64,000 bases of DNA, from assembly GCF_009827325.1 (NCBI RefSeq), contig NZ_WTYC01000002.1:62001-126000 (forward strand), in the 5' to 3' direction. Of the stretch, positions 4,006-37,946 are shown piece by piece. The stretch comes from Qipengyuania vulgaris (lineage in GTDB: Bacteria > Pseudomonadota > Alphaproteobacteria > Sphingomonadales > Sphingomonadaceae). Position 1 is the first letter of the stretch, and the number at the start of each line of letters is the position of its first letter. Under the pieces are notes generated by a model. The model worked only from the letters and a program-made list of their open reading frames with translations, was not told the origin of the DNA and ran no database searches. The position numbers and the translations under genes were made by a program.

Positions 4006-4617
4006 ATGAGTGAAATCTCCGAAAGCATTAAAGCTGCTCGCGCAGCAAAAGGCTTCACCCAAAGACAGCTGGGCGAACGGGTAGGCCTGCCCCAAAGTCA
4101 TATCTCGAAGATTGAGAGCGGCGCCGTGGACCTCCAACTCTCCAGCCTTATCGAGATCGCGCGGGCGCTCGATCTGGAGTTGAAGCTTGTGCCCCGCAAA
4201 ACTCTACCAGCGATCGAGAGCGTCGTACGCTCTCAGCGGGAAAGACACGACACAAGCCGCGCGCTCACAACGATTGCCGAAACGAGAAGATTTGCTGAGC
4301 GCATCCGCGAGAACTTCCCAAGCGTCACCCAAGTAGATGAACTTCAAAAGGCCTTGAACAACATCGAGCCGGCTTATTTCAATCCCGAAATGCTCAGAGA
4401 CATTCAGGAAGCATTGCAGCCGGTCGCCCACCTCAGAAAACACCTGCAAGATCTGGGTTGGGTTCTTGAAGACCAGGTGGGAACGAGAAAACTCGTGCGG
4501 CAAATCCAGAATGCGACCCGCGCACTCCAAAACATCAGAAATCTTCAAAGTCATGCGACGCATTTAGAGAATGCGCCTCGACTGCCGGCATATCGGCTCG
4601 AGGAGGACGACGAATGA
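4006..4617 (+). CDS. hipB: HipB-like XRE antitoxin with long C-terminal extension
   Basis: 203 residues. Residues 5-60 form a clear helix-turn-helix of the XRE/Cro type (IKAARAAKGFTQRQLGERVGLPQSHISKIESGAVDLQLSSLIEIARALDLEL). Canonical HipB of E. coli is under 90 residues, so about 140 residues beyond the HTH are extra; they are helical, charged and probably coiled-coil (LNNIEPAYF, IQEALQPVAHLRKHLQDLGW). It is expected to neutralise HipA and repress the operon. It starts downstream of a weak GGAA ribosome site and its stop overlaps hipA by four bases (ATGA), so the two are coupled. Role by context is strong; the tail is unexplained. Confidence 0.88.
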   Translation: MSEISESIKAARAAKGFTQRQLGERVGLPQSHISKIESGAVDLQLSSLIEIARALDLELKLVPRKTLPAIESVVRSQRERHDTSRALTTIAETRRFAERIRENFPSVTQVDELQKALNNIEPAYFNPEMLRDIQEALQPVAHLRKHLQDLGWVLEDQVGTRKLVRQIQNATRALQNIRNLQSHATHLENAPRLPAYRLEEDDE

Positions 4618-5828
4618 TCGACGCAGCAGCCCTCGATATCTTTCTCGGTAAAACGCGCGTTGGAACGATCGCCCGGCTCGATGGAGATGCCAGCATCTTC
4701 ACATTCGACGAAACCTATCTGGCCAGTCCGGATAGGCAGACGCTTTCACTCGCCTACAAAGATGCCAACGGCGACATTCTCTCGGATACGCGAAGCTATC
4801 GCACCGTAATCGAGCCGTTCTTTTCCAACCTTCTACCCGAAGGCACACTTCGGGACTACCTGGCCCGGCGCGCCGGAGTGAAATCGGTCCGAGAATATCA
4901 TCTACTCACACAGCTCGGGCACGATCTTCCGGGGGCAGTGCGGGCCGTCCCAGTGGATACAGAGGATACAGAGGCAGACGAGCCCGATGAAAATGCCGTG
5001 GAGCAACAGGGAAAGCGCGCGCTGCGCTTCTCGCTCGCCGGCGTGCAACTCAAGTTTTCAGCGGTCAAATCTCATGAGAAAAATGGAGGGCTAACCATCC
5101 CAATCACTGGCAGCGGGGGGGACTGGATCGTCAAGCTGCCTTCTGCCCGGCACCCCGACGTGCCGGAGGCGGAGTTTGCAGCGATGAGCCTAGCAGGCAA
5201 AATTGGGATCGATGTACCTGACAACGATCTGCTACCGCTGGATCGGATCGGCGGTCTACCCGAGGGCATCCACCGCTACGGGCAATCCGCTTTTACCATC
5301 CGGCGCTTCGATCGGGGCGCGGAGGGTGCGATACATATCGAAGATTTCGCTCAGGTATTCGGCGTCCTTGCGGAGCAAAAATACGAAAATGCCAGCTACC
5401 GTCAGATCCTCAGTGTGCTTGCCATCGAAACAGACGAGCAAAGCATATTGGAGTTCATTCGCCGCCTCACCTACTCGGTCCTGATCGGCAATGGCGACAT
5501 GCATTTGAAGAACTGGTCCTTGATCTATCCCGACACGCGCAACGCGCTGCTAGCACCAGCCTATGACTTGCTTTCGACGCTCGCCTATATTCCGGGCGAC
5601 GATGCGGCGTTGAAATTTCATCGTTCGCGAAATTGGACATCTTTCACCTACGACGAACTCGAGACGATCGCGGACAAGGCCAAACTGCCAGCACATTTGC
5701 TGATCTCGACGGCGAAAGAAACCGTTGCGCAATTCGACGAAGTCTGGAGCAGCGAAAGCGGCCACCTCCCCTTCCCCGGTGACGTGCGTATCGCAATTGA
5801 AAAGCACCGCAAATCTCTTGCGATTTGA
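4614..5828 (+). CDS. hipA: HipA-family serine/threonine kinase toxin
   Basis: 404 residues, close to the E. coli HipA length. An N-terminal subdomain (about 5-110, YRTVIEPFFSNLLPEGTLRDYLARR) is followed by the kinase core: SLAGVQLKF (140-148, the P-loop and autophosphorylation-serine region), DWIVKLP (170-176), the HIED motif (241-244), catalytic GNGDMHLKN (292-300, Asp295) and metal-binding PAYD (315-318, Asp318). E. coli HipA phosphorylates glutamyl-tRNA synthetase and causes dormancy; other HipA proteins have different targets, so the target here is not known. All key residues are intact. Operon partner of the HipB-like gene. Confidence 0.92.
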   Translation: MIDAAALDIFLGKTRVGTIARLDGDASIFTFDETYLASPDRQTLSLAYKDANGDILSDTRSYRTVIEPFFSNLLPEGTLRDYLARRAGVKSVREYHLLTQLGHDLPGAVRAVPVDTEDTEADEPDENAVEQQGKRALRFSLAGVQLKFSAVKSHEKNGGLTIPITGSGGDWIVKLPSARHPDVPEAEFAAMSLAGKIGIDVPDNDLLPLDRIGGLPEGIHRYGQSAFTIRRFDRGAEGAIHIEDFAQVFGVLAEQKYENASYRQILSVLAIETDEQSILEFIRRLTYSVLIGNGDMHLKNWSLIYPDTRNALLAPAYDLLSTLAYIPGDDAALKFHRSRNWTSFTYDELETIADKAKLPAHLLISTAKETVAQFDEVWSSESGHLPFPGDVRIAIEKHRKSLAI

Positions 5829-12232: not shown

Positions 12233-13762
12233 ATGAGCGAGACCGATCCGCACAAAACTCCCGTTATCATTGGCGTGGGTCAGATCAACGACCGTCCGGA
12301 GGATCCGCGCGACGGCCTCGACCCGATCGGCCTGATGGCAGAGGCCTTGCGAAGGGCAGATCAAGATGCGGGCGGCGGATGGCTGGCGGATTGCGATTCG
12401 CTTTCGGTCGTGGCGCAGCTGGCGTGGCCGCAGCTAAACCCGGTCGATGGCAAGCTGGCCAAGATGCTCAGCCTCAATCCGGTACATAGCATGCAGACCG
12501 CAATGCCGAGTGGAGACAGCCCGGTCCTGTTGTTGCACGAAGCTGCGAACCGGATCGCGCGCGGAGATGCACAGATATGCTCCGTCGTCGGAGGTGAGGC
12601 TCTGCGCACGGCAGCGAAACTCGTTACTTCGAAAGCCAGCGAAAACGGAGAGAAGCCCAATGCGCTGCGCGATGCAAACCATCGCAAGCGAACCGGTTAT
12701 GCGCAGACCTATGGGCTAGTGCTGCCGACCGACGTCTACCCGCTCTACGAGAACGCCAGCCGCGCCGCTTATGGGCAAACCCTTGAAGAAGGCCAAGCAG
12801 AGAGCGGAGTTATCTGGTCGAAAATGAGCGAGGTCGCCGCCGGGAACGAGAGCGCGTGGATACGCAGGCCAGTCGGTCCCCGCGCCATCGTCACGCCGAC
12901 ACCCGACAACAGGCCCATCGCTTTTCCCTATACCAAGCTGCAGGTCGCCAATTCCTCAGTGAATCAGGGTGCCGGCTTTCTGGTCACCAGCTTGGCCGAA
13001 GCGCGGGCGCGGGGCATTCCCGAAAGCCATCTGGTATTCCTGGGCTATGGAGCGGCGGCGCATGAAGATGCCGATTTCCTTGCCCGTGACGATTACGAGG
13101 CTTCGCCGAGCCTGGCGGTATCGATCGAGCGGGCATTGAATTTGAACGGGATTTCGACCTCAGATCTCGCCCATGTCGAGCTGTATTCCTGCTTCCCCTG
13201 CGTTCCCAAGATGGCGCGGCGTGTTCTCGACTGGCCCCTCGATAAGCCCATGACCGTCTTTGGCGGTCTTACCTTTGGCGGGGGCCCCGTTGGCAATTAC
13301 ATGAGCCATGCGATTGCAGAGATGGTTTCGCGCCTCAGGGGAACTTCCAGTAAGGGCCTGCTGTTCGCCAACGGCGGTTATGCGACACATAACCACACGC
13401 TCGTTCTGTCCGGCGCGCAAACCGGAGCGCTATTCCCGCAAGATTTTGATTTTCAGGGCGAGGCAGACAGCCGGCGGGGCAGTATTCCGGAACTCGACGA
13501 GGCCTATTCGGGCGATGCGACCATCGAGACCTATACCGTTCATTACGGCCGCGAAGGATCTCCGCGATCGGGCGTAATCGTGGCGCGAACGTCTGCCGGC
13601 GGGCGAACACTGGCGCTTGTCCCTCCATCGGATGCGGAAACCATCTCGTTCCTGACCTCCGGCGCTCCCGAATCGGTTGGTCGCGCGGGATTGATAAGCC
13701 GTGATGAAGAAGGCATGGGGCTTTGGCGCATGCCAGCGAACCCTGCTGAAAAAACGGATTGA
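12233..13762 (+). CDS. thiolase-like protein (acetyl-CoA acetyltransferase family, TLP1 type)
   Basis: 509 residues. Opens KTPVIIGVGQINDRPEDP and contains QICSVVGGEALRTAAKL, SSVNQGAGFLVTSLAEAR, VELYSCFPCVPKMARRVL, FGGLTFGGGPVGNYMSHAIAEM and NGGYATHNHTLVLS, the SCP2-thiolase style. About 100 residues at the C-terminus (GRTLALVPPSDAETISFL) look like the extra domain of thiolase-like type 1 proteins. The usual N-terminal nucleophile cysteine with its CG context is not apparent; the GDSP segment sits there. It may bind acyl-CoA without classic thiolysis. First gene of an acyl-CoA cluster running to 17907. Confidence 0.85.
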   Translation: MSETDPHKTPVIIGVGQINDRPEDPRDGLDPIGLMAEALRRADQDAGGGWLADCDSLSVVAQLAWPQLNPVDGKLAKMLSLNPVHSMQTAMPSGDSPVLLLHEAANRIARGDAQICSVVGGEALRTAAKLVTSKASENGEKPNALRDANHRKRTGYAQTYGLVLPTDVYPLYENASRAAYGQTLEEGQAESGVIWSKMSEVAAGNESAWIRRPVGPRAIVTPTPDNRPIAFPYTKLQVANSSVNQGAGFLVTSLAEARARGIPESHLVFLGYGAAAHEDADFLARDDYEASPSLAVSIERALNLNGISTSDLAHVELYSCFPCVPKMARRVLDWPLDKPMTVFGGLTFGGGPVGNYMSHAIAEMVSRLRGTSSKGLLFANGGYATHNHTLVLSGAQTGALFPQDFDFQGEADSRRGSIPELDEAYSGDATIETYTVHYGREGSPRSGVIVARTSAGGRTLALVPPSDAETISFLTSGAPESVGRAGLISRDEEGMGLWRMPANPAEKTD

Positions 13763-13780
13763 GGTTTTCAAGACAGGCTG

Positions 13781-14596
13781 ATGCCCGACGAAGTATGGAC
13801 ACCAATACGGCACGTCTATGTTGCCGGTCAGTGGGTCGCTGCGGCGAGCCGCCAGGACTTTGTCGGTGCTGCGCACGCCGATGCCGATTATGCCGACAGG
13901 CACGGCCGGGTTCGCACACGCCTGATCTTCGATGCAAACGGACAAGGCACGTCGCTCGCCCGCACCAGGCCCGATTTCCGCGAGGCGCTGGCGCATGCGG
14001 ATGTCGTCCATGCAGACGGACAGTTCATTGTGAACATGGCTCGCCGTTATTGTGCCGAGCCAATTCCCGAACGCGCGCCGACAACCGACATGATCATGGA
14101 CTTCGCGAAGCGCTGCGAACAGAGCGGCCGCAGCTTCTATCTGCTCGGCGCCTCCGAAGAAACCAACGCCGATTGCGCTCGGATTCTGCAGGAAATGTAT
14201 CCGCGGCTGAAGATCGTCGGCCGCCATCACGGCTATTTCAATGGCAGCGAAGAGCAAATCCTCGCCGATATCGCGGACAAGAGGCCCGATTTCCTCTGGG
14301 TCGGCCTCGGCAAACCGCTGGAACAAAAATTTTGTGCCGAATATGCTCATCGGATCGACGCGGTCTGGACCATTACCTGCGGCGGATGCTTCAACTTCAT
14401 CACTGGAGAATACCGGCGCGCGCCCGAATGGATGCAGAATTCCGGGCTCGAATGGGTGCACCGGATGTTCACCCAGCCCAAGCACCTGTTCTGGCGATAT
14501 TTGACCACGACGCCGCACGCCCTGACGATCGCCCTGCGCCAGTCCGACAAGCGGTTGAAGGTCATGAAGTACGACACGCCTTTCGAGGCGAACTGA
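13781..14596 (+). CDS. WecB/TagA/CpsF family glycosyltransferase
   Basis: 271 residues, no signal peptide. Family motifs: DANGQG (51-56), VVHADGQFIVNMAR (75-88), ERAPTTDMIMDFAKRCE (97-113), FYLLGASEE, FLWVGLGKPLEQKF, WTITCGGCFNFITGEYRRAPEWMQNSGLEWVHRM. The class transfers N-acetylmannosaminuronic acid or similar sugars to undecaprenyl-linked acceptors for polysaccharide assembly. It begins 18 bases after the thiolase-like gene and is followed by crotonase, dehydratase and dehydrogenase genes, an unexpected context for a sugar transferase. Family firm; substrate unknown. Confidence 0.9.
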   Translation: MPDEVWTPIRHVYVAGQWVAAASRQDFVGAAHADADYADRHGRVRTRLIFDANGQGTSLARTRPDFREALAHADVVHADGQFIVNMARRYCAEPIPERAPTTDMIMDFAKRCEQSGRSFYLLGASEETNADCARILQEMYPRLKIVGRHHGYFNGSEEQILADIADKRPDFLWVGLGKPLEQKFCAEYAHRIDAVWTITCGGCFNFITGEYRRAPEWMQNSGLEWVHRMFTQPKHLFWRYLTTTPHALTIALRQSDKRLKVMKYDTPFEAN

Positions 14597-14665
14597 GCAG
14601 GTAGGTTGCCTTTCCAGACCTGTTTCCCCAAGACATCGCAAACACCGATTTGACGGGAACGGGAA

Positions 14666-15451
14666 ATGAGCGACTTCGAAACCATCCGCGCGGATAGCAG
14701 CGGCAGTATCCTGACCATAACCCTGAACCGCCCTGAACGGCTCAACGCTTGTCCTCCCGGCATGGCCGACGAGATTTTCGCGGCGATCCGCGATCTTGGT
14801 GATGCCCGCGCCGTGGTCCTGAAAGGAGAGGGCCGCGCTTTCTGTTCGGGCGCCGATCTTGCTGGAAATGCGGAAATGTCGATCAGCGGCGGCGACCGTG
14901 CCTATGCATCGCTGAGCCAGCATTACAATCCGATGATCCAAGCACTCGCTACCCTTCCGGTGCCGGTCGTCTCCGTCGTCCAGGGACCGGCTGCAGGAGT
15001 TGGATGCTCCATCGCACTTGCTGCCGATTTTGTCATCGCGGGCAAGAGCGGATATTTCCTCCAAGCGTTCGCCAATATCGGGCTCGTGCCCGACGGCGGT
15101 TCGAGCTGGATGCTGCCCCGACTCATCGGGACCGCCCAGGCGACCCGCATGATGATGCTGGGCGAGAAGATCCATGCCGAAGAGGCGGAGCGTCTCGGTC
15201 TGATATACAAGTGTGTCGAAGACGAATCGCTGGAAGGCGAGGTTCAAGCATTGGCCGAGCGGTTAGCAAACGGCCCTACGGTGGCGCTCGGCCTGATGAA
15301 ACAGACGCTTCGCGACGGACTTTCACAGGATTTGGCAACCACGCTTGGCGCAGAGGCGAAGGCCCAGCGTTCGGCGGGAAACACGCAGGATGCCGTTGAA
15401 GGCGCCATGGCGTTCCTTCAGAAGCGGAAGGCAGATTTCAAGGGAAGTTGA
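14666..15451 (+). CDS. enoyl-CoA hydratase/isomerase family protein
   Basis: 261 residues, standard crotonase length. LTITLNRPERLNAC (14-27), the oxyanion-hole segments FCSGADL (59-65) and GPAAGVGCSIALAADFVIA (107-125), and GYFLQAFANIGLVPDGGSSWMLPRLIG (128-154). The QAFANIGLVPDGG stretch resembles PaaG-type enoyl-CoA isomerases/hydratases: the first catalytic Glu of classic hydratases is absent while the Asp of PDGG is kept, so isomerisation or hydration of an unusual acyl-CoA is possible. Same-strand cluster with MaoC-type dehydratase three bases downstream. Confidence 0.88.
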   Translation: MSDFETIRADSSGSILTITLNRPERLNACPPGMADEIFAAIRDLGDARAVVLKGEGRAFCSGADLAGNAEMSISGGDRAYASLSQHYNPMIQALATLPVPVVSVVQGPAAGVGCSIALAADFVIAGKSGYFLQAFANIGLVPDGGSSWMLPRLIGTAQATRMMMLGEKIHAEEAERLGLIYKCVEDESLEGEVQALAERLANGPTVALGLMKQTLRDGLSQDLATTLGAEAKAQRSAGNTQDAVEGAMAFLQKRKADFKGS

Positions 15452-15454
15452 GGC

Positions 15455-16270
15455 ATGACCGGCGTGAGCGAAGCGCAAGTCGCCGAATGGCAGCAGGCTG
15501 TCGGACGGGAATTGGTCGAGGAAGAAACACTCGATCCGCTGGCCTTGCGCCGCTTCGCCCGTGCTGTCGGTCGAGAAGACGAGACCGACCGGGTCCCCCT
15601 GCCCCACTGGGCCTTCTTCCTTCCTTGTCCGGACGATGGCACGATTGGACCCGACGGACATCCTCGAAGGGGAGGTTTCCTCCCCGAAGTCGCGCTTCCT
15701 CGCCGAATGTACGCCGCTTCCGACATCACGTTCGGCCGCCGTCTCGAAACCGGCGCACCTGCGCGTCAGACGAGCCGCGTGATGGAACTCGAACATAAGG
15801 CCGGACGAAGCGGGGACCTCGTTTTTGCGAGGGTCGAAAAGCGGATCGAACAACACGGCGAGTTATGCGTTCGTGAACTGCAGACCTACGTCTATCGCGG
15901 AGAAGGAGAGCCGATCTCTCTGCCCAAAGCTGCTCAGACGACACTCGAGGGCGAGCTCTGGCACCCTCGCGAGGTCAATCTTTTTCGCTTCTCCGCGGCA
16001 ACTTTCAATGGGCACAGAATTCACTATGACCTGCCCTACACGATTGAGGTGGAAGGATATCCCGCGCTAATCGTCCATGGTCCCTTTACCGCCGCCAAAC
16101 TCGCCGAACTCGCCATGCGTGAGGGAATACTCTCCAGCTTTTCCTTTCGCGCCATGGCGCCGCTCTTTCTGGGCCAGACCATTGTATTGCGCGCTGTGCT
16201 GAAGAGCCGCTACGAGGCGGTGCGATGCGATGGAACCGTGGCGATGATTGCCACTGCGGAGTTCCTATGA
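15455..16270 (+). CDS. MaoC/HTD2-type acyl-CoA dehydratase (mesaconyl-C4-CoA hydratase-like)
   Basis: 271 residues. N-terminal FAS1-like dehydratase half (about 1-130, LPHWAFFLPC, GFLPEVALPRRMYAASDITF) and a C-terminal half with the hydratase-2 signature LFRFSAATFNGHRIHYDLPY (about 176-195), then GYPALIVHGPFTAAKLAEL. Related proteins hydrate or dehydrate branched or dicarboxylic acyl-CoA esters such as mesaconyl-C4-CoA. Starts three bases after the crotonase stop and its own stop overlaps the dehydrogenase start by four bases (ATGA), so expression is coupled. Confidence 0.85.
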   Translation: MTGVSEAQVAEWQQAVGRELVEEETLDPLALRRFARAVGREDETDRVPLPHWAFFLPCPDDGTIGPDGHPRRGGFLPEVALPRRMYAASDITFGRRLETGAPARQTSRVMELEHKAGRSGDLVFARVEKRIEQHGELCVRELQTYVYRGEGEPISLPKAAQTTLEGELWHPREVNLFRFSAATFNGHRIHYDLPYTIEVEGYPALIVHGPFTAAKLAELAMREGILSSFSFRAMAPLFLGQTIVLRAVLKSRYEAVRCDGTVAMIATAEFL

Positions 16271-17907
16271 GCGACGACATCGCCCTTGCCCGCGCAGCTT
16301 CCCATGCTGCAGCGGAATTCACCGACAGCGTCCGATCGAAGCTCGCCGACTTGGTTGCGCCCGACGGCAAACTCGACGCCAAACTTGCCGAGCGCGAACA
16401 GCACCTGCTTCATGGGTTTGCGTGGATGGCCACCATCTCCGCCGCGATTGACGCTGCCGCGAACTGGGCGGGTCGGGCGCATGATGCAGGCGCCTTCGGA
16501 GAGACCGACGAGCTCGTCCTGAGCATCGGTATCGGCGAATATTGCGCGCAGCTCGCCAGCGGCGTTGTGATGAGCCAGAACGAAACGGTCCGGCCCTGCG
16601 ATTTCGGGCTCGACGAGGAAGCACGGGAATTCGCCTGTGACGATGCCGTCAGCCAGTTCATCACGCTTCGCAACACTGCGGAAAAGCGCGCGGCTCTGGC
16701 CCGGCGACTCGCTGAAGGCGAGCGCCCCTTCGAGGGTACGGGGGATGGCATGCTCGACATGGTCCGCGACCAATTCCGAACATTTGCCGCGAACCGCATC
16801 GCGCCCTACGCACATCGGTGGCACCTGGAAGATGCGCTGATTCCCTCCGAACTGGTTCAGGAAATGGCGAATCTTGGCGTGTTCGGGGTTTGCATCTCCG
16901 AAGAATACGGCGGCTTGGGCCTCGGCAAGCTCGCCATGTGCCTCGTTTCGGAAGAACTCTCACGCGGCTGGATTTGTGCAGGGTCGCTGGGCACGCGTTC
17001 CGAGATTGCGGGCGAGTTGATCGGCGAGAACGGAACGGACGAACAGAAAGCCAGATACCTGCCGAAGATCGCGGATGGATCGATACTCCCGACCGCGGTC
17101 TTTACCGAGCCCGATACGGGTTCCGATCTTGCATCGGTGCGAACGCGGGCATCCCGTGCCCCGGATGGTGTTTGGCTAATCGAGGGCGCGAAGACATGGA
17201 TCACCCATGCCGCCCGCGCGGATTTGATGACCATCCTTTGCCGCACCGATCCCGGCACCCCGGGCTATGGCGGACTTTCCATGCTGCTCGCCGAGAAGTC
17301 CCGCGGCACGGAGGAATGTCCGTTCCCCGATGATGGCATTGCAGGGGATGAAATAGAGGTTCTCGGCTACCGCGGGATGAAGGAGTACTCACTAGGCTTC
17401 GATAGGTTTGCGGTAGATTCCGACGGACTGCTTGGCGGTGAGGAAGGACAGGGTTTCAAGCAGCTCATGCGCACCTTCGAAGGCGCACGTATCCAGACGG
17501 CCGCCCGGGCGATTGGTGTGGGATGGAATGCGTTTGATCTCGGCCTGCGCTACGCCGCGCAGCGTACCCAGTTCGGCAAGCCACTGCTGGCCTTCCCCAG
17601 AGTGTCCGACAAGCTTGCCATGATGGCCTGCGAACTCGTGATGGTACGCGAACTGACCTATTCCGCCGCCCGTCACAAGGATCGCGGCGAGCGCTGCGAT
17701 ATAGAGGCAGGAATGGCAAAGCTGTTGGCTGCACGCGTTGCTTGGGCGAATGCCGACAACGCACTACAGATCCACGGCGGGAACGGATATGCGCTGGAAT
17801 ATCAAATCAGCCGAGTCCTTTGCGACGCACGAATCCTGAATATTTTCGAAGGGGCCGGGGAAATCCAGGCGCACGTCATCGGCAGAGGATTGATGGCGTT
17901 GCGATAG
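16267..17907 (+). CDS. acyl-CoA dehydrogenase
   Basis: 546 residues from the ATG at 16267, chosen because it overlaps the preceding stop; an upstream in-frame ATG at 16225 would run into the dehydratase. About 150 extra N-terminal residues (helical, AHDAGAFGETDELVLSIGIGEYCAQLASG) precede the canonical fold: FGVCISEEYGGLGLG, TEPDTGSDLASVRTRA, KTWITHAARADLMTILCRT, AQRTQFGKPLLAFPRVSDKLA, ALQIHGGNGYALEYQISRVLCDARILNIFEGAGEIQAHVIGRGLM. FEGAGE carries the catalytic glutamate. Longer than the usual 380 residues. FAD enzyme oxidising an unknown acyl-CoA, last gene of the cluster. Confidence 0.9.
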   Translation: MSDDIALARAASHAAAEFTDSVRSKLADLVAPDGKLDAKLAEREQHLLHGFAWMATISAAIDAAANWAGRAHDAGAFGETDELVLSIGIGEYCAQLASGVVMSQNETVRPCDFGLDEEAREFACDDAVSQFITLRNTAEKRAALARRLAEGERPFEGTGDGMLDMVRDQFRTFAANRIAPYAHRWHLEDALIPSELVQEMANLGVFGVCISEEYGGLGLGKLAMCLVSEELSRGWICAGSLGTRSEIAGELIGENGTDEQKARYLPKIADGSILPTAVFTEPDTGSDLASVRTRASRAPDGVWLIEGAKTWITHAARADLMTILCRTDPGTPGYGGLSMLLAEKSRGTEECPFPDDGIAGDEIEVLGYRGMKEYSLGFDRFAVDSDGLLGGEEGQGFKQLMRTFEGARIQTAARAIGVGWNAFDLGLRYAAQRTQFGKPLLAFPRVSDKLAMMACELVMVRELTYSAARHKDRGERCDIEAGMAKLLAARVAWANADNALQIHGGNGYALEYQISRVLCDARILNIFEGAGEIQAHVIGRGLMALR

Positions 17908-18007
17908 TGGAAGGATGGGCGCAATCGCGTTTATCGGCATCGGAAAACCCCTCGACACCCGCGAAGCCCGACATCGGGGCAATTGCGACGAAACGGGATG
18001 ACAACAA

Positions 18008-18511
18008 CTATTCGTGGAGACTGACTCCTTCACGCTCGACCACATTCTCGCCCGAAGCCGCAACGTCGAGCAGCAGGTCGACCAGATGGTCTTCAAGCAG
18101 GTTGATCTCGTCAATGTAGAGAAAGCCACGATGTGCCTTGGCCAAAAGCCCCGGCTCGAATGCTTTCTCCCCAGAACGTAGCGCTCGTTCCAGGTCGAGT
18201 GAGCCGATTACCCGGTCCTCGGTTGCCGCAAGGGGCAGATCGATATAGGGAACAGGGCGTAGGCGCATCGGCCCAATTCCGCAGACATCGGGATAGCGCC
18301 CCTGATCTTCTTTCGAGCAACCGTATGGGCAATCCTTGACCGCCGAAATCGGCGGCAGAAGCGACGCAAGCGCCCGTGCGGCGGTGGATTTGCCCGTACC
18401 CCGATCTCCGAACACCATGACCCCGCCAATCGCCGGATCGACCGCGCTTACCAGCAGTGCCTGCTTCATTTCGTCTTGAGCGACGATCGCGGAAAAGGGA
18501 AAGCGCGCCAT
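18008..18511 (-). pseudogene. bchI: truncated bchI (magnesium chelatase ATPase subunit I), relic
   Basis: 167 codons from the ATG at 18511. Matches the N-terminal half of BchI closely: [20 protein letters not shown], Walker A GDRGTGKS (35-42), the [16 protein letters not shown] insertion (61-77), LDLERAL and Walker [37 protein letters not shown] (129-164). It then stops at SLHE, where BchI normally continues for about 170 more residues with the sensor and arginine-finger parts. bchD and other photosynthesis genes are absent. It converges on the acyl-CoA dehydrogenase gene. Cannot be a working chelatase subunit as read. Confidence 0.85.
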
Positions 18512-18649
18512 ATCTTGCACCTTCCTGCAACAGCTCTCGGTCGGCGGCAAGGTCTTTACCTGCGGTCGTTGCAGCGGGTTATACAGAAGCCCACTGCAAC
18601 AGGATCATCCGGCTATGCACAGCGAGAGTGTGCGCTTATGAGATAGCCA

Positions 18650-19150
18650 ATGGACTTCTCAATCCTTTTCGCCGCCATCTGGGCAATTTTCCTCGCATTT
18701 GGCGGAGGCTTACTCACCCAGATCGATGATTGGTATCACCATCTCGAAAAGCCTTCCTGGCAACCGCCAAACTGGTTGTTCGGTCCGGCCTGGACAATCA
18801 TTCTCGGGCTCGCCGCTTGGGCATTCGTGTTGAGCTGGGACAACGCCGCCAGGGCCGGGCAGGAAATTTTCCTGATCGGCCTCTATGTAGCCAACGGCGT
18901 GTTTCACTTCCTGTGGTCACCCCTGTTTTTCAAGGCACGGCGGCCGGACTGGGCGCTGATCGAAGTCCCATTTCTCTGGCTATCCGTGCTGGCTCTCTGC
19001 GTATTCCTCAGAGACTGGTCGGTCCTGGCCAGCTGGCTGATCGTGCCGTACCTAGTCTGGGTCAGCTTTGCAGCCATTCTGAATTTGAAAATTGTCGAGC
19101 TAAACCGCCCGTTCTCAAAAGCCGCCGATGCGTCCAACAGTAGTAAATAA
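18650..19150 (+). CDS. tspO: TspO/MBR family tryptophan-rich sensory protein
   Basis: 166 residues, five transmembrane helices. PSWQPPNWLFGPAWTIILGLAAWAFVLSWD (about 35-64), LYVANGVFHFLWSPLFFKARRPDWALIEV and VPYLVWVSFAAILNLKIVELN are the TspO signature. In Rhodobacter TspO is an outer-membrane tetrapyrrole-binding protein tied to control of pigment genes and lies in the photosynthesis cluster. Here it is divergent from the truncated bchI (138-base gap) and ends 11 bases before the left attachment repeat of the tRNA island. Confidence 0.9.
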   Translation: MDFSILFAAIWAIFLAFGGGLLTQIDDWYHHLEKPSWQPPNWLFGPAWTIILGLAAWAFVLSWDNAARAGQEIFLIGLYVANGVFHFLWSPLFFKARRPDWALIEVPFLWLSVLALCVFLRDWSVLASWLIVPYLVWVSFAAILNLKIVELNRPFSKAADASNSSK

Positions 19151-19161
19151 GGAATAAATGT

Positions 19162-19209
19162 TGGTAGCGGAGGAGGGACTTGAACCCCCGACACGCGGAT
19201 TATGATTCC
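19162..19209. repeat. attL: 48-bp copy of the tRNA-Met 3' half
   Basis: Perfect 48-base match to 24575-24622, which is the 3' end of the intact tRNA-Met gene from CCA back into the anticodon arm. After 19209 the sequence no longer resembles the tRNA. This is the classic footprint of integration at the 3' end of a tRNA gene, marking the left end of a 5.4-kb element. Confidence 0.85.
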
Positions 19210-19221
19210 AACGGAATGGGG

Positions 19222-19237
19222 CGTAGACGCGTCTACG
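19222..19237. repeat. 16-bp perfect palindrome beside attL
   Basis: CGTAGACGCGTCTACG, fully self-complementary, 13 bases inside the island from the end of the attL repeat. It could be a binding site for an integrase accessory protein or a regulator. Function is not shown by the sequence. Confidence 0.5.
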
Positions 19238-19322
19238 TTGACATGATCACTCCGCGATCCCGCTGCTTCTGGAATGGCGGGAAGCCAAGCGCAGCGTCTG
19301 TTTTTGGGATGAAAAGCAGCCA

Positions 19323-19508
19323 TTAGTCAGGTCGTTTCCAAACGGCACCGATAAGGCCAACGATCAGTGCAAGGCCAAGCGCCCAAGGAAAGATCTGCCC
19401 CCCAATTATCGCACGCTCTGAAACTGCAAAACCTAGCGCAGTCAAAATAAACCCAATCGGTAAGCCGACGATCGAAAAGACTAAAAGTCTTATTGGCGAA
19501 AAACTCAT
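19323..19508 (-). CDS. small hypothetical membrane protein
   Basis: 61 residues from the ATG at 19508: MSFSPIRLLVFSIVGLPIGFILTALGFAVSERAIIGGQIFPWALGLALIVGLIGAVWKRPD. Two hydrophobic helices (about 7-27 and 36-56) joined by a short loop, positively charged C-terminus. A longer frame to 19667 exists but its first 53 residues look non-coding. First cargo gene of the island; no family recognised. Confidence 0.5.
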   Translation of the reverse strand: MSFSPIRLLVFSIVGLPIGFILTALGFAVSERAIIGGQIFPWALGLALIVGLIGAVWKRPD

Positions 19509-19733
19509 ACTCTTCACTATAAACCAAGTTTCTGCGAGCCGCACAGAAATATCCAAAGTTAGGGTCACTCCTCCGGTTTTGGGTGGGAAACGGACACAGG
19601 CTAGAGGGCCTCTTCTCCAAAAAAATTCACTACCGCCGGAGTAAATAGGATGCGGCACAATACGCAAACGAGCACGTGGTTGCAGACTTCACAATCGCAT
19701 GGCTAAATTAGCGTTCCAGCGACGGGGGATGCT

Positions 19734-21167
19734 ATGAAAGTCTTGAGAGCCCTTCTTTGCAGTTCGGCTGCTCTGTTGGTGACACTGGCGAGTGCTGCAG
19801 GCGCGCAGGACGAAGACGCGTTGCTCTTGAAGGACGTGCAGATCCTTCATCTCGAAGGGGAACATGCACGCTTGGTCCCTGGAATGTCGATTCTAATCAA
19901 GGACGGCAAGATTGCCCGGATTATCCCGGCCGAGGAGGCCGAAATGGACGGCCTTGCCATGATCATTGAGGGTAACGGTCGGATCGTGATGCCTGGCCTC
20001 GTCGATATGCATGTTCACGTTTGGGATCGGCAATCTCTGGGCGCATATCTGGCGGCTGGCGCTACAACAATCCGCAACGCATCGGGGATGCCATTCCATC
20101 TTCGGCTAATTCGGGAGATCGAGCGGGGCAACGTGATCGGCCCTCGTCTGATTACGACCGGACCGATATTGAACAGCCCCGGCCCCAACGAGCAGGTCAA
20201 CCACCAAATTGTTTCGACAGCTGCGGAAGCCCGCGATGCCGTGCAACAGCAGCACGAGGCCGGCTATCGCAGACTTAAGGTTTATTCCAATCTCACACGT
20301 GAAGCATATGAGGCAGTCCTGACCGAATCGGACAGCCTCGGAATGACGGTCATGGGGCACACTCCCGAAGGAGTTCGAAAGCCCGGAATGCCCTACCAAA
20401 TCCCGTTCGAAATAGCATTCGGGGAAATCCTCGATGACGGCTTTGTTACGATCGAACACGTTGAATCAATTGTTTGGCACGGATTAAGGGACCGCCATGA
20501 CCAAGCGGCTGGGCGTGCGCTCGCGAGTCAGATCGCAGCCGCCGAGGTGCCTGTCGATCCAACTCTGCTCGCGTTCTACAACCTTTTAAGGGTCGCCGAG
20601 ACCAAAGGCGCATATCTTCAGCGTCCAGGGACCGAGATGCTCAATCCCCTGTTGGTCGCTCAGAGCCAGGCCGAATATGAGCGGTGGTCCAGCGAGGACG
20701 TGGACCGGAACCGTGCTGCATTCCAGTTCTACAAGAGCATGGTGCGGTTAATGTCGGAGGAAGGCGTCCTGATTATTGCAGGGAGCGACGCCGGTATCTT
20801 TACGAACGTTCCGGGGATCTCGTTGATCGAGGAACTCGAATTGCTCGAAGAAGCTGGGCTGGACCGAGTTGCGGTTCTCCGCGCGGCGACGATCAACTCG
20901 GCGATCGCGCTCGGAGAGCAGGATCAGGTTGGTCGCGTGGCCGAAGGTTACCGGGCAGATCTTGTTCTATTGGGCGATGACCCGACAGTAAGCTTGGAAG
21001 CCCTCAGATCAGTCTCAGCCGTCATTGCAGGGGGCAGATGGTTCGACAGAACTGCGTTGGATGATCAGTTGGCCGCTGCATCCCAACACGACGTGGTGCG
21101 AACTCATCGCAACCTAGTCGAAGCCCTGACTGCACAAGGCGTCGATCCAGCCACTCTTGGACTATGA
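19734..21167 (+). CDS. exported amidohydrolase family protein
   Basis: 477 residues with a signal peptide (cleavage near AAGAQ, residue 24). Metal ligands of the amidohydrolase fold are visible: His93 and His95 in MHVHVW, Lys182 in LKVYSN (probable carboxylated lysine), His209 in MGHTPEG, His242 in IEHVES and Asp352 in AGSDAG. The C-terminal GRVAEGYRADLVLLGDDPTVSLEALRSV is typical of imidazolonepropionase-like and prolidase-like exported members. Likely a periplasmic hydrolase of an amide or cyclic substrate. Ends three bases before the convergent serine hydrolase gene. Substrate unknown. Confidence 0.9.
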   Translation: MKVLRALLCSSAALLVTLASAAGAQDEDALLLKDVQILHLEGEHARLVPGMSILIKDGKIARIIPAEEAEMDGLAMIIEGNGRIVMPGLVDMHVHVWDRQSLGAYLAAGATTIRNASGMPFHLRLIREIERGNVIGPRLITTGPILNSPGPNEQVNHQIVSTAAEARDAVQQQHEAGYRRLKVYSNLTREAYEAVLTESDSLGMTVMGHTPEGVRKPGMPYQIPFEIAFGEILDDGFVTIEHVESIVWHGLRDRHDQAAGRALASQIAAAEVPVDPTLLAFYNLLRVAETKGAYLQRPGTEMLNPLLVAQSQAEYERWSSEDVDRNRAAFQFYKSMVRLMSEEGVLIIAGSDAGIFTNVPGISLIEELELLEEAGLDRVAVLRAATINSAIALGEQDQVGRVAEGYRADLVLLGDDPTVSLEALRSVSAVIAGGRWFDRTALDDQLAAASQHDVVRTHRNLVEALTAQGVDPATLGL

Positions 21168-21170
21168 ATT

Positions 21171-22607
21171 TCATTCGGAAGAATGCTGACGGCCTCCAGT
21201 AGAGTATGCGAGAGCCAAACGAAGCATCGCCCAGATAGGAGCGACTATGGCTGAAGCAATCAAGCACCAGGCGAAGTCGGGCTGATAGAGTTGAAGGGTT
21301 GCGATCGAGCCCCCGAAAATGCTCGGCAACGGCCAGACCAGAAACCACGCAAGGCCAAGCATCGCGACAAGCGGGAACCAGAGGCTGAACTTGCCGCTTA
21401 TGCTGTCTCTCTTCGCAATCAAGGCTGACCTTCCTCTCCAAGAGACGAATGCAAACAGCACAAACAAGGGCGGCAGGATTGCAATTGAGAGGTAGGCGAT
21501 TTTTGGCCCCCACCGTGACCCGTCATCATCATGAGATTGGCCCAAGGCTCGCGCCCCAACGCCACCGATTAGATACCAGGTATCGGCGAAGCCCAAGCCG
21601 CCATTGGCGTTGGCCAACACCACTACGCCTTTCTTTTCGGCGGGTCTGAAGGAGACAAGCGCTTCGGCTCCGGGCACCAATCCGATATGATAGACAGCCT
21701 CGTGCTCAGCATCGATAGACCAGCCCAGTCCATAAGAGGGCGAGGCAGGGCCAGAAGCCATCACCATTTCGGATTTGGTATTGGCCGAGAGGATGTCGTC
21801 TTCGCCGTTTAACCACATGGCGAGATAGCGTCCCATATCCTCCACGCTGGCCACGATCCCCCCAGCCGAAGCATTGATCGGATAGCCATCACCGCTTGCA
21901 TAGGCACGGACACTGCCAAACCAAGGACGATGCCCGGTTGCCATGCCCGCAGGATTGGGTCCGCTCACCACCAAACTGTTTGTCATCCCAAGGGGTTTGA
22001 ATATCCGTTCGTCGATGTAGTTCGAGTAGTTTTGACCGCTCACTTCCTCGATGACCGCTCCTAGGATTTGATAGTTTGCGTTGGAATATTCCCAGACAGC
22101 GCCCGGTGCGTTCGCGGGAGGCACCTGCGCAAGCTGCTCCGCATATTGGATAAGTCCAAGTTGTGATGCGTCGGCATTGCCATGCTGGCTATTGCCCTGA
22201 ACGGTCGAGAACCCGCTAGTGTGGTTTAAGAGCTGGCGCACCGTCACGCCGCGTGCAGGTCCCGTTGCGAAAACGGGCAAGTGCTGCGATACGGGGTCAT
22301 CCAGCGTGAGCTCCCCGGCTTCGACCAGCTGCATGATGGCGAGCGCTGTAAAGCTCTTGGTGACCGAACCGATTGGGAACAGCGTATCTCGTGTGACCGC
22401 CTCGTCACTCCCCCTTGCAGTTCTTCCAAATCCTCTTGCTGTGATCTCACCGTCTTGCACTAGGGCGTAAGCGATACCTGGCGCAGCGCTCTCTGGAAGT
22501 TCGGCTGCGATGAAGGGGTCGACTTGCGAACTTCCCGCGCTCGCAGACAGGTTTGAACCAGCCAACGCAAGAGCGGCAAATACCCATGTCATTTTCATGC
22601 GGATCAA
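21171..22607 (-). CDS. serine hydrolase (beta-lactamase/penicillin-binding fold) with C-terminal membrane domain
   Basis: 478 residues: signal peptide (1-24), serine hydrolase domain with SVTK (81-84, nucleophile Ser81 and Lys84) and YSN (174-176), LLNHTSGFS (127-133), then a C-terminal region of about 120 residues with four hydrophobic segments (IAILPPLFVLFAFVSW, FPLVAMLGLAWFLVWPL, FAWCLIASAIVAPIWAML). The catalytic part should face the periplasm, anchored by the C-terminal helices. The ATG overlaps the stop of the DUF3667 gene by four bases. Class C lactamase relatives cleave peptides or esters; the substrate here is unknown. Confidence 0.9.
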   Translation of the reverse strand: MIRMKMTWVFAALALAGSNLSASAGSSQVDPFIAAELPESAAPGIAYALVQDGEITARGFGRTARGSDEAVTRDTLFPIGSVTKSFTALAIMQLVEAGELTLDDPVSQHLPVFATGPARGVTVRQLLNHTSGFSTVQGNSQHGNADASQLGLIQYAEQLAQVPPANAPGAVWEYSNANYQILGAVIEEVSGQNYSNYIDERIFKPLGMTNSLVVSGPNPAGMATGHRPWFGSVRAYASGDGYPINASAGGIVASVEDMGRYLAMWLNGEDDILSANTKSEMVMASGPASPSYGLGWSIDAEHEAVYHIGLVPGAEALVSFRPAEKKGVVVLANANGGLGFADTWYLIGGVGARALGQSHDDDGSRWGPKIAYLSIAILPPLFVLFAFVSWRGRSALIAKRDSISGKFSLWFPLVAMLGLAWFLVWPLPSIFGGSIATLQLYQPDFAWCLIASAIVAPIWAMLRLALAYSTGGRQHSSE

Positions 22608-23896
22608 AATGCACCAAGCACTAGAAGGGCCTGCAAGAACAGTATCAACACGATCAAGACGAAAGCGAGTAGAGCCAGAAAGCGCCAGACGGTCGAGAAG
22701 CGAGACAAGTCGTATGTGTGTCTCAGATGCTTGTAGACATGAAGCGGTGCGACCGTCGCAAAGATTGTAAAAGCATAGCCACCACTTTGATCAACCGGGC
22801 TTGCTGCGACCAAAGACATCGCGATAAACAAGAGCGACATGAAGCTCAGCGAATAGGTCACAAAGATTGCATGGTCATAGGCTTTGAACCGTCGTTTCCA
22901 TGCAAAGAGCAGCCAAACAAATGGGATGGACAATGGGATCAGAAGCCAGCTGAATTTGTAGCCGTTCGTTTGCAGTTTGTAGAGCATCAGGCTCGGGTTT
23001 GATCTCCATTTCTCGACGAGCGAATCCACCAATCCAACCCCGGTCTTTCGGGCTGCAATCCTCCCTTCATTGCTTTCAAGGAAGGGAATTGTGCTCTGCG
23101 CTTGTTCTTCAAGTTGTTGGAGTTCCGATAAGCTCCCTTCTGCGGCAGCGATCTCGGCAGCCAGATCGGCGTATTCGGATGACCCTTCTGGAAGGGCTTC
23201 CAGCCTTTCTCTTGCTTCGGCGATCTGCTCTTGGCCAGCTGACTTTAGCTCACCGACGTAGCTGCTATCGCCCGATATCAGCCATTGGGAGAGATTCCGC
23301 CCACGTGTCTCCAGCAGCCTTAGATCATCTTCGAGGCTTGCACGCTGCGTCACAAGCGCCTCTCGGCGCGCTGCATCAAGATCGGGCGATGCCAGTTCCG
23401 CATCGATGTCGGTGATTTGTGCAAGAACCTCTTCGCTCTCGGCTTCGACCATCCGAGTGACCTGCGTGCGCGCAACACTTGTCAGATCGGTGGGCGTGGT
23501 GAGCCCAACCATTTGAAACACAGCGAACATCAGAAAGACGCTGAAGAGGAACATGGCCATCGGACTGACGAACTTGGCGCGTTCGCCATCGATATAGCGT
23601 CGCGTGAGCTTGCCAGGTTTGAAGACTAGCAGCGGCAGCGTTCGCCAAAGCTTGCCATCGAGATGCAGAACACCGTGAACGATATCGTGGCCAATTGCAG
23701 CCAGGCTGCGATGCACCTCGCGCTTCTGCCCGCACTGCGGACAGTGAGGGCTTGTGAACGAAGTGCCGCAGTTAAGGCAGGTCGTCTTTTCGTGAACTTC
23801 GGGCTGCTGGTTGGTCTCGCCTTGGCGCGGTTCCACAGATCGTCCGGCGAGTGTTCCCTCAATCGCTGTGCCAAGTCCATCTGTGATGTCGTTCAT
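22604..23896 (-). CDS. DUF3667 domain protein with zinc ribbon and coiled coil
   Basis: 430 residues. A zinc ribbon with Cys40, Cys43, Cys52 and Cys55 (CLNCGTSFTSPHCPQCGQ) leads into the DUF3667 motif HRSLAAIGHDIVHGVLHLDGKLWRTLPLLVFKPGKLTRRYIDGERAKFVSPMAMFLFSVFLMF. A charged, probably coiled-coil stretch (about 145-265, RASLEDDLRLLETRG, AAEGSLSELQQLEEQAQ) follows, then four transmembrane helices. Function of DUF3667 is unknown. Cotranscribed with the serine hydrolase gene (four-base overlap), implying a joint membrane function. Confidence 0.87.
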   Translation of the reverse strand: MNDITDGLGTAIEGTLAGRSVEPRQGETNQQPEVHEKTTCLNCGTSFTSPHCPQCGQKREVHRSLAAIGHDIVHGVLHLDGKLWRTLPLLVFKPGKLTRRYIDGERAKFVSPMAMFLFSVFLMFAVFQMVGLTTPTDLTSVARTQVTRMVEAESEEVLAQITDIDAELASPDLDAARREALVTQRASLEDDLRLLETRGRNLSQWLISGDSSYVGELKSAGQEQIAEARERLEALPEGSSEYADLAAEIAAAEGSLSELQQLEEQAQSTIPFLESNEGRIAARKTGVGLVDSLVEKWRSNPSLMLYKLQTNGYKFSWLLIPLSIPFVWLLFAWKRRFKAYDHAIFVTYSLSFMSLLFIAMSLVAASPVDQSGGYAFTIFATVAPLHVYKHLRHTYDLSRFSTVWRFLALLAFVLIVLILFLQALLVLGAF

Positions 23897-24114
23897 AATC
23901 GCCCCTCGTCACTTCTGCCTTATACCCAAGCTGTGGCTCGCAGCAAAAAAGGTGTGTGTGTGTGTTTCCGGACATGCACTGGTTCGGCGTTACGATGTAG
24001 GAACTCGCGAAAAGGAAATAATCTCGCGCTTGCGGTGAACGAGCGTCTTGGTGTTTCACAGCTGTGGCTGAAATGGGCTGTTTGCGGAACAGCGGCATTC
24101 ACGGCGGCTATGGG

Positions 24115-24272
24115 CTACGCAGCAAGAAGCCCCCGCTCCATCTCGCCCATGAGATCCACGTCCTCCGCTGGATCGTGGAACAGGTGCCCATAAACGTCAT
24201 AGGTCATCGTGATGGACGAATGTCCCAGCATGGTCTGTATCTTCTTTGGCGGCCAGGCAGCTTCGGGAGAAA
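24115..24272 (-). pseudogene. tyrosine recombinase (integrase) C-terminal relic
   Basis: Reading the minus strand, about 50 codons give WPPKKIQTMLGHSSITMTYDVYGHLFHDPAEDVDLMGEMERGLLAA then a stop (TAG at 24115-24117). This is the C-terminal end of a phage-type integrase with the LGHSS motif and the tyrosine nucleophile in VYGHLF. Upstream the frame is lost and no catalytic Arg region can be seen, so the gene is dead. Its place 300 bases from the tRNA-Met attachment site fits the integrase that built the island. Confidence 0.75.
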
Positions 24273-24574
24273 CCAGCACTAGCCTTGTAATTACAAAAGC
24301 TTTGCTGGAGACACCTTGAACGAACGGGGGTGACTGATGGAATTGACTGTAGCCGATGCTGAACGCCTGAAGGGCGGCTTAGCGCAGCACCGCATCAAAT
24401 CTCGAGGGGTTTTCGTCCTCACAGCCATCGTTTTTACAGCGCTCTCTATGGCAGTCTTGCTGCAATTTCAGGTGCTTATATCTGCGATCTGTAAAAGATG
24501 CCCAACCGACCAAACTTTTTACAATCAGGAGGAAGGCCAAGTCCTGGAATTTTTTGCTTGAAATCAAGAACTTA
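24273..24574. other. island right end, no supported gene
   Basis: Contains a 12-bp perfect palindrome TTGTAATTACAA (24285-24296). A 74-codon plus-strand frame (24337-24561) has one hydrophobic segment and a plausible start, but composition and context do not let me call it a gene. Confidence 0.35.
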
Positions 24575-24622
24575 TGGTAGCGGAGGAGGGACTTGAACCC
24601 CCGACACGCGGATTATGATTCC
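24575..24622. repeat. attR: 48-bp repeat inside tRNA-Met
   Basis: Identical to 19162-19209. The copy sits in the functional tRNA and so preserves the gene after integration. Together with attL it bounds a 5.4-kb element. Confidence 0.85.
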
Positions 24623-24651
24623 GCTGCTCTAACCAGCTGAGCTACTCCGCC
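24575..24651 (-). tRNA. tRNA-Met (anticodon CAT)
   Basis: 77 bases with CCA encoded (TGG at 24575-24577 on the plus strand). Acceptor stem GGCGGAG / CTCCGCT, D-arm GCTC / GAGC, anticodon stem GCGGA / TCCGC with loop ATCATAA giving CAT, T-arm GGGGG / CCCTC with TTCAAGT. A 7-bp acceptor and normal variable loop fit an elongator tRNA-Met; a lysidine-modified tRNA-Ile(CAT) cannot be excluded by eye. Its 3' half is the attachment site of the island on its left. Confidence 0.92.
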
Positions 24652-37079: not shown

Positions 37080-37262
37080 TCAGATATCGTTACCCAGCTT
37101 ACCTTCCACTTCACCGGCAAATTGCTGGGCTTCACCCTTGCGTTCCTGACGCTTGCCTTCGCGATCAAGACGCTCGTTATCGGTCATTTCGGCCACTGCC
37201 TGCTTTGAATTGCCGCTAGCTTCATTGGCATTGCCTTTGATCTTCTTGGTTAGTTCGCCCAT
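37080..37262 (-). CDS. CsbD family stress protein
   Basis: 60 residues: MGELTKKIKGNANEASGNSKQAVAEMTDNERLDREGKRQERKGEAQQFAGEVEGKLGNDI. Hydrophilic, helical, with the KGNANEASGN and KGEAQQ repeats typical of CsbD. Ribosome site AGAAGGAGCG lies just upstream. Members are induced in general stress; molecular role unknown. A possible extracytoplasmic sigma (EcfG-type) promoter precedes it. Confidence 0.9.
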   Translation of the reverse strand: MGELTKKIKGNANEASGNSKQAVAEMTDNERLDREGKRQERKGEAQQFAGEVEGKLGNDI

Positions 37263-37314
37263 GGGACGCTCCTTCTAATGTGGCGCCTGGAAAAAAAGAC
37301 GCGGTTACAGAAGG

Positions 37315-37342
37315 ATAAGCATTCAGAAGGAACTAACGTTCC
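37315..37342 (-). promoter_or_regulatory. possible EcfG-type promoter of csbD
   Basis: On the minus strand GGAAC (37338-37342) is followed after 17 bases by GCTTAT (37315-37320), about 50 bases before the csbD ATG. GGAAC at this spacing from a short -10 is the general stress response pattern of alphaproteobacteria (GGAAC-N16/17-CGTT). The -10 match is imperfect. Confidence 0.4.
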
Positions 37343-37381
37343 GCGCTCATGCGCCCAGACGGTTGCTCCGTGCGACGAAGC

Positions 37382-37792
37382 TTAAATACCGGCCATCGAG
37401 CAGATGATCGACCATTCTTCGGGTTTGATCTCTGCCACTGAGAGGCGGGACAGTTTTACCAATTCGCAATCCGCCAAATTCGGCTCCGCCTTGATCTGCT
37501 TGAGCGTGACGGGATGAGGCAGCCTGGTCTTGGGTACGATCTTTACTGCAGCCCACTTGCCTTCGGGATCGGTGGGATCGGTGATGCCCGCTGCGCTGAT
37601 TTCGCAAATGCCGACAATTTCCAATCCTTCGCGAGAATGGTAGAAGAACGCCTGGTCCCCCACTTCCATAGCCGCAAGATTGTTCTTGGCCCGATGATTG
37701 CGGACGCCGTCCCAAGTACCCTCATTCTCGGCGACAAGATCGTCCCAGCCGTATTTGAATGGTTCGGATTTCATCAGCCAGTAACGTGCCAT
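37382..37792 (-). CDS. EVE domain protein
   Basis: 136 residues from MARYWLMKSEPFKYGWDDLVAENEGTWDGVRNHRAKNNLAAMEVGDQAFFYHS; an ATG 36 bases upstream is less likely. WLMKSEP, W-x-GVRNHRAKNNL and FYHSREG are the EVE (PUA-like) signature, which binds modified bases in RNA or DNA. The C-terminal LVKLSRLSVAEIKPEEWSIICSMAGI is standard. Stand-alone EVE proteins of this size are widespread in proteobacteria; the ligand is not known. Confidence 0.9.
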   Translation of the reverse strand: MARYWLMKSEPFKYGWDDLVAENEGTWDGVRNHRAKNNLAAMEVGDQAFFYHSREGLEIVGICEISAAGITDPTDPEGKWAAVKIVPKTRLPHPVTLKQIKAEPNLADCELVKLSRLSVAEIKPEEWSIICSMAGI

Positions 37793-37946
37793 CTGCGCGA
37801 TTTCCTTGTCGATCGTGAATGCCAGCAACGGGAACTAGCGAGCGGGATACCTGCTGGCCAGTCCGCCCCGACCATCAAATTGGCAGTTAACGGGTTTTTA
37901 GCCTCGCAAGCCTAGATGGATTGAATGAACAAGTTCGGGGGGTCCC

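Follow-up and report, generated by a model that had tools for sequence, protein, structure and literature searches.

A half-length bchI gene at a tRNA-Met integration hotspot in Qipengyuania vulgaris, probably the deletion scar of a photosynthesis gene cluster

Phototrophs are scattered among the Erythrobacteraceae, and published work has argued either for gain of the trait, as in Erythrobacter sp. AP23 and strains 6B39 and 6D47A, or for its loss, as in strain JLT1363. Complete photosynthesis gene clusters (PGCs) and clean empty sites cannot show the direction of change. The locus described here raises the question of how half of a bchI gene came to stand next to a tspO gene and a tRNA gene in the genome of Qipengyuania vulgaris (G000; other G-numbers denote the compared genomes). 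An initial sequence-only reading took it for the last relic of a PGC lost in this lineage. We call the whole 64,000-nucleotide stretch of G000 that was analysed the window and give its features in window coordinates (Table 1). Protein and profile searches covered 99 genomes, including 60 members of the genus.

The truncated bchI frame lies on the minus strand, starting with an ATG at 18511 and ending with a stop codon at 18010-18008. Its 167 residues contain the N-terminal AAA+ half of BchI, with Walker A and Walker B intact and the motif GDRGTGKST present, as had been read from the letters alone; profile coverage and the homology break described below both confirm the truncation. The BchI-ChlI profile TIGR02030 aligns over positions 1-169 of its 337 with 249.7 bits (E 4.2e-74), which falls short of the full-length cut-off of 466.95 bits because half of the protein is missing. 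BchI was matched in 12 of the 99 genomes, namely G000, six genus members (G007, G009, G025, G042, G045 and G050) and five genomes from other families, one of them weakly. The six congeneric proteins are 79-90% identical to the stub and lie in open frames of 334-560 residues; among the best 80 matches, the nearest BchI proteins of named genomes belong to Erythrobacteraceae, for example Alteriqipengyuania abyssalis at 89%. The stub has a GC3 of 0.64 versus 0.70 for three neighbouring genes in the window, and composition therefore does not flag it as foreign.

In alignments with the six congeneric genes, DNA homology stops at window position 18026-18027, at about codon 162, and the stub frame continues into unrelated sequence for five codons before its stop. 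Because the homology ends so abruptly and the DNA after it is unrelated, we place the junction near 18027 and reject an origin by frameshift or by a nonsense mutation within a complete bchI. Position 18008, where the junction had first been placed, is the end of the stop codon, and it is the alignment with phototrophic congeners that moves it. The acyl-CoA dehydrogenase gene on the other side ends at 17907, and the bases from 17908 to the break have no convincing match in the relatives that were fetched (best E-values at least 0.11). The left end of any deletion would thus fall within 17908..18026.

Table 1. Features of the bchI locus in window coordinates, with the evidence for each.
Feature	Position	Strand	Evidence
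Left neighbour: thiolase-like, WecG-type glycosyltransferase, enoyl-CoA hydratase, unassigned 271-aa protein and acyl-CoA dehydrogenase genes	12233..17907	+	Pfam
Junction stretch, acyl-CoA dehydrogenase gene to bchI stub	17908..18026		No convincing match in relatives
Non-homologous end of the truncated frame, with its final codons and stop codon	18008..18026	-	Alignment
bchI 5' half, about codons 1-162	18027..18511	-	TIGR02030, congener protein and DNA homology
tspO, of the kind flanking bchI in G042 and G045	18650..19150	+	PF03073, DNA match
48-bp copy of the tRNA-Met 3' end, attachment-site-like repeat	19162..19209		100% against 24575-24622
Small island, repeat to tRNA-Met, 5.4 kb	19210..24574		Pfam
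Amidohydrolase	19734-21167	+	PF01979
Beta-lactamase-family serine hydrolase	21171-22607	-	PF00144
DUF3667 protein	22604-23896	-	PF12412
tRNA-Met (CAT), putative integration site	24575..24651	-	ARAGORN

The remainder of a PGC was sought throughout G000. The statement that puf genes are missing holds for the whole genome: no PufLM reaction-centre gene (PF00124) is present, the profile having matched in 12 of the 99 genomes and in 8 of the 60 genus members. With the stub as query, its own locus is the sole BchI match in G000, and this search found neither a second nor a full-length bchI. There are two further Mg_chelatase matches. One is strong and lies in a 543-residue frame, which we take from its full-length match to be YifB-like; the other is weak, at 23.9 bits. 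Two 14-kb pieces of the G042 PGC, 28 kb in total, were also used as DNA queries (they exclude the bchI 3' half, the bchD 5' part and G042 1500-1506 kb, and bchD and bchH are identified in them by published gene order). Both pieces match the G045 PGC at 80-82% over nearly their whole length; in G000 their matches are limited to a tspO paralogue (49 bp) and a hemA-like gene (172 bp), and the hemA-like match also occurs in the non-phototroph G046. These queries thus detected the bchD 3' part and the bchH region in G045 and not in G000, and for that part of bchD the original remark that the gene is missing stands. The puhA profile PF03967 had no match in G000 and none in control genomes either.

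The far edge of a PGC can be followed by a DUF3422 gene, which occurs in 6 of 16 genomes searched, all among the 8 of these that carry PufLM, and which was not found in G000. G013 and G028, which bear PufLM, are fragmented assemblies with no match to DUF3422 or BchI. Four genomes carry the gene at the hemA end (hemA being named by published gene order and ORF length); G007 and G009 carry it at the bchI end, with an identity of only 40-41%. At the hemA end it is accompanied by a plastocyanin-like lipoprotein gene, the two spanning 1521403-1523426 in G042, 557025-558961 in G045, 582142-584123 in G050 and 37109-38957 in G025, with the plastocyanin domain tested in G042 only. Neither the DUF3422 search nor the G042 DNA pieces found a far PGC edge in G000. 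This counts against a deletion scar, and also fits the arrival of a fragment alone, in which only tspO and half of bchI would have reached the site by transfer or rearrangement and a working cluster would never have stood there in this lineage. An assembly artefact at the junction, by comparison, is scarcely credible. The junction is known from one strain's assembly, a point that also weighs against a scar, but the contig is 476 kb long with the junction 80 kb inside it, the assembly has 99.99% completeness and 0.26% contamination, and the cluster parts searched for do not turn up elsewhere in that assembly.

The neighbouring tspO is full length (PF03073, E 1.6e-39, profile positions 6-143 of 145), scores 95.6 against the NCBIfam equivalog NF047825, under its cut-off of 180, and may still work. 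The initial reading pointed to the tspO inside the Rhodobacter cluster, but identity and position lead us to reject the window gene as a PGC-internal tspO. Six congeners carry such an internal gene near pufM, and it is only 43-49% identical to the one in the window, which is a second tspO, divergent from bchI. In G042 and G045, bchI and a divergent tspO align with the window as an unbroken DNA match about 1.1 kb long, and the window tspO is 79% identical to the G045 copy. Because copies of this type also stand away from the PGC, in G050, G007 and G009 among the matches listed, it is the bchI-tspO pair, and not tspO alone, that links the locus to a PGC end. Among 37 genus genomes, non-phototrophs have only weaker tspO paralogues (up to about 39%), except for a 49-residue piece in G035 (G035:C7:95258-95404) that is 61% identical to the window tspO and contains a stop. 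G035 has no PufLM, and its tspO piece may be another PGC-edge relic.

On its other side the pair faces a tRNA gene. A direct repeat of a tRNA 3' end is the mark left by an element that enters a tRNA gene, and such a repeat of the tRNA-Met 3' end, identical at 48 of 48 bases, starts 11 bp past the tspO stop. No integrase was found among the three island genes scanned (amidohydrolase, serine hydrolase and DUF3667 protein); the island also has a 114-residue ORF at 19323-19667 on the minus strand. A second copy of the tRNA-Met end also lies near this tRNA in G009, G034 and G059, as found in a scan of 59 congener loci, of which 52 yielded the full tRNA. Over the 3 kb that follow the tRNA-Met 3' end, at least 500 bp are common to 57 of 1275 genome pairs (51 genomes), versus 1378 of 1378 pairs (53 genomes) on the other side of the tRNA, and the window has at least 500 bp of these 3 kb in common with no other genome. 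The tRNA-Met site is a hypervariable integration hotspot. Elsewhere in the window, at 4006-5828 on the plus strand, a helix-turn-helix protein (HTH_3) is followed by a HipA-like protein (HipA_C, Couple_hipA), and by their domains the two are likely a HipBA-type toxin-antitoxin pair.

A complete cluster occupies this hotspot in G042, where the order is yfcG-like gene, tRNA-Gln, DUF3422, plastocyanin-like gene and hemA at one end and bchI, tspO, about 30 kb of other genes, tRNA-Met and the fabF region at the other. The PGC thus lies between tRNA-Gln and tRNA-Met with its tspO side towards tRNA-Met, and the same PGC end faces tRNA-Met in the window relic. In three genomes that the core tree (below) places close to G042, namely G002, G055 and G056, the two tRNA genes are 118-124 bp apart; the range is 44-124 bp when G045 is included, whose PGC lies more than 400 kb from this site. 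Comparison by eye indicates that in G042 about 50 bp of this spacer remain next to tRNA-Gln, ahead of the insertion. A search of 140 kb found no tRNA-Met repeat bounding the G042 PGC, and this, together with the absence of an integrase from the scanned island genes, counts against a scar. The PGC flanks differ between congeners. In G050 a tyrosine integrase gene (L035, G050:C17:621881-623173) is divergent from and adjoins bchI at a PGC end that is also a contig end, and tRNA-Pro-GGG was not found in the scanned G050 stretches.

Other relatives hold the window's left neighbour at the same place. G046, a relative of the window with no PGC, has the acyl-CoA dehydrogenase cluster in the interval from tRNA-Gln to tRNA-Met, and part of the DNA corresponding to 12233..17907 sits there; in G052 the cluster lies between the yfcG-like gene and tRNA-Met, and the DNA is collinear with that of the window. 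The left neighbour is accounted for because these two genomes hold the cluster at this site. Among the matches listed, the cluster is elsewhere in G020 and the acyl-CoA dehydrogenase gene is elsewhere in the phototrophs G009, G028, G042 and G045. The idea that the cluster was the original far flank of the PGC is thus unsupported, and the position of this gene in phototrophs is a further point against a scar. In G000 itself, tRNA-Gln and the yfcG-like gene are on contig C17, 9 kb from the contig end, which prevents the hotspot's two sides from being linked in this genome. The tRNA-Gln and yfcG-like genes have opposite orientations in G042 and G045 and the same orientation in G000, G046, G020 and G050, a difference that would reflect a local inversion or a second gene.

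A core tree was built from three proteins (FabF, MltG and AspS) and a bchI tree from the half gene, both with modest support. The core tree groups the window with eleven congeners in a 12-species clade (SH-aLRT 99.3, UFBoot 71). None of the other eleven members has a BchI or PufLM match, and the phototrophs sit on other branches; descent of a PGC to G000 would thus need many losses, which again counts against a scar. The bchI tree conflicts with the core tree, with weak support around G000. This conflict, the phototroph-free clade, the hotspot with its island traces and the missing trace of a far edge are all what one would expect if a fragment alone had arrived. Identity at fourfold sites, however, is 0.42-0.53 between the stub and the six bchI genes and 0.50-0.54 for core genes. 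The stub is as distant as core genes or farther and therefore not a recent copy from any sampled relative; these distances leave no sampled genome as a recent donor, yet the stub is undecayed. Gene order and orientation to tRNA-Met also equal those of the complete G042 cluster. On balance we consider it unlikely that a fragment was all that ever reached the site.

The state of the half gene bears on when it was cut. Its dN/dS is 0.05-0.11 against G050, G045, G025, G042, G007 and G009, within the 0.04-0.28 of intact pairs, and 1 of 78 near-invariant residues is changed, compared with a mean of 0.43 and a highest value of 3 in 86 sequences. By our estimate the stub has probably gained no more than about 0.03 neutral substitutions per site since it was cut, which is a few per cent of the synonymous depth and an order-of-magnitude figure (calculated with some 180 nonsynonymous sites and an upper limit of 4.7 expected events, one-sided 95%, with dS near saturation). 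Because the half gene shows no relaxed constraint, we judge the deletion to be recent; by this rough, order-of-magnitude measure the cut would be recent relative to the age of the bchI lineage. The same open frame, low dN/dS and near-intact invariant residues could mean that the short BchI has been kept as a functional protein, such as an ATPase that serves another chelatase, or a regulator, but a recent truncation explains the absence of decay equally well. Moreover, the C-terminal half is missing, no bchD 3' part or bchH-containing DNA was found in G000, and no copy of the short protein appeared among the best 120 of 3195 matches (best identity 88%; eligible lengths 0.55-1.75 of the query; three of the 120 listed proteins inspected). 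We regard a working short protein as very improbable, and the stub should not act as a magnesium chelatase because its C-terminal half and partner subunits are missing.

Together, these observations suggest that the locus is probably the deletion scar of a PGC that formerly lay at this hotspot. A cluster with bchI at one end and hemA and DUF3422 at the other would have stood there with its bchI-tspO end towards tRNA-Met, and was probably gained at, or kept in, the hotspot and then deleted recently. The deletion, starting about 162 codons into bchI, would have taken out the remainder, some 36-39 kb for a cluster resembling those of G042 and G045, and would have fused bchI to the sequence that follows the acyl-CoA dehydrogenase gene. 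A further small island may have entered at the tRNA-Met 3' end, leaving the 48-bp repeat. Arrival could have been by transfer or by descent; the PGC may have been gained before it was lost, because the site is a hotspot, PGC flanks vary and eleven clade members have no BchI or PufLM. The sequence-only reading of a relic of a lost PGC therefore remains the most likely one, and its loss in this lineage is too simple an account given the hotspot and this clade. An undecayed half gene says more than an empty site can, namely that intact PGC DNA would have been present here and then cut recently, and it places the cut in an integration hotspot where a congener carries a complete cluster.

It is also conceivable, though we hold this only tentatively, that the spacer beside tRNA-Met is a recurrent docking site for whole PGCs in the genus, with G042 as the loaded state, G002, G055, G056 and G045 as empty states and the window as the state after loss. 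If so, phototrophy here would come and go at a single place on the chromosome, as a plug-in trait of short duration, and the question of gain or loss could be tested in individual strains.

In the open-licence literature, judged by titles and the starts of abstracts, no account of a truncated bchI relic from the Erythrobacteraceae was found. The closest case of loss is Citromicrobium JLT1363, which like G000 is a non-phototroph whose PGC is gone, the loss being inferred from an emptied site by comparison with a relative (PMC3338782). G000 differs in retaining half of a PGC gene, whereas the main text on JLT1363 contains none of the words remnant, relic, bchI or fragment (PMC3338782). For gain, the PGC of Erythrobacter sp. 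AP23 has the same gene order, with a tRNA gene at one end and an integrase after that tRNA-Pro-GGG, and was argued to have come by transfer; it is a complete cluster at tRNA-Pro-GGG, in contrast to a stub at tRNA-Met in G000 (PMC4919336). The PGC island of Bradyrhizobium cosmicum is likewise a complete cluster between repeats, whereas in G000 the repeat separates tspO from a small island and no more than the stub is left (PMC7656271). Qipengyuania strains 6B39 and 6D47A, probably of the same genus as G000, carry complete PGCs running from bchIDO to hemA, with a patchy occurrence and a proposed origin by acquisition, and the available part of that account mentions no relic such as the G000 stub (PMC9241875). 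Loss of PGCs and tRNA-linked PGC islands are thus both known already, and G000 is a further, unusually direct case.
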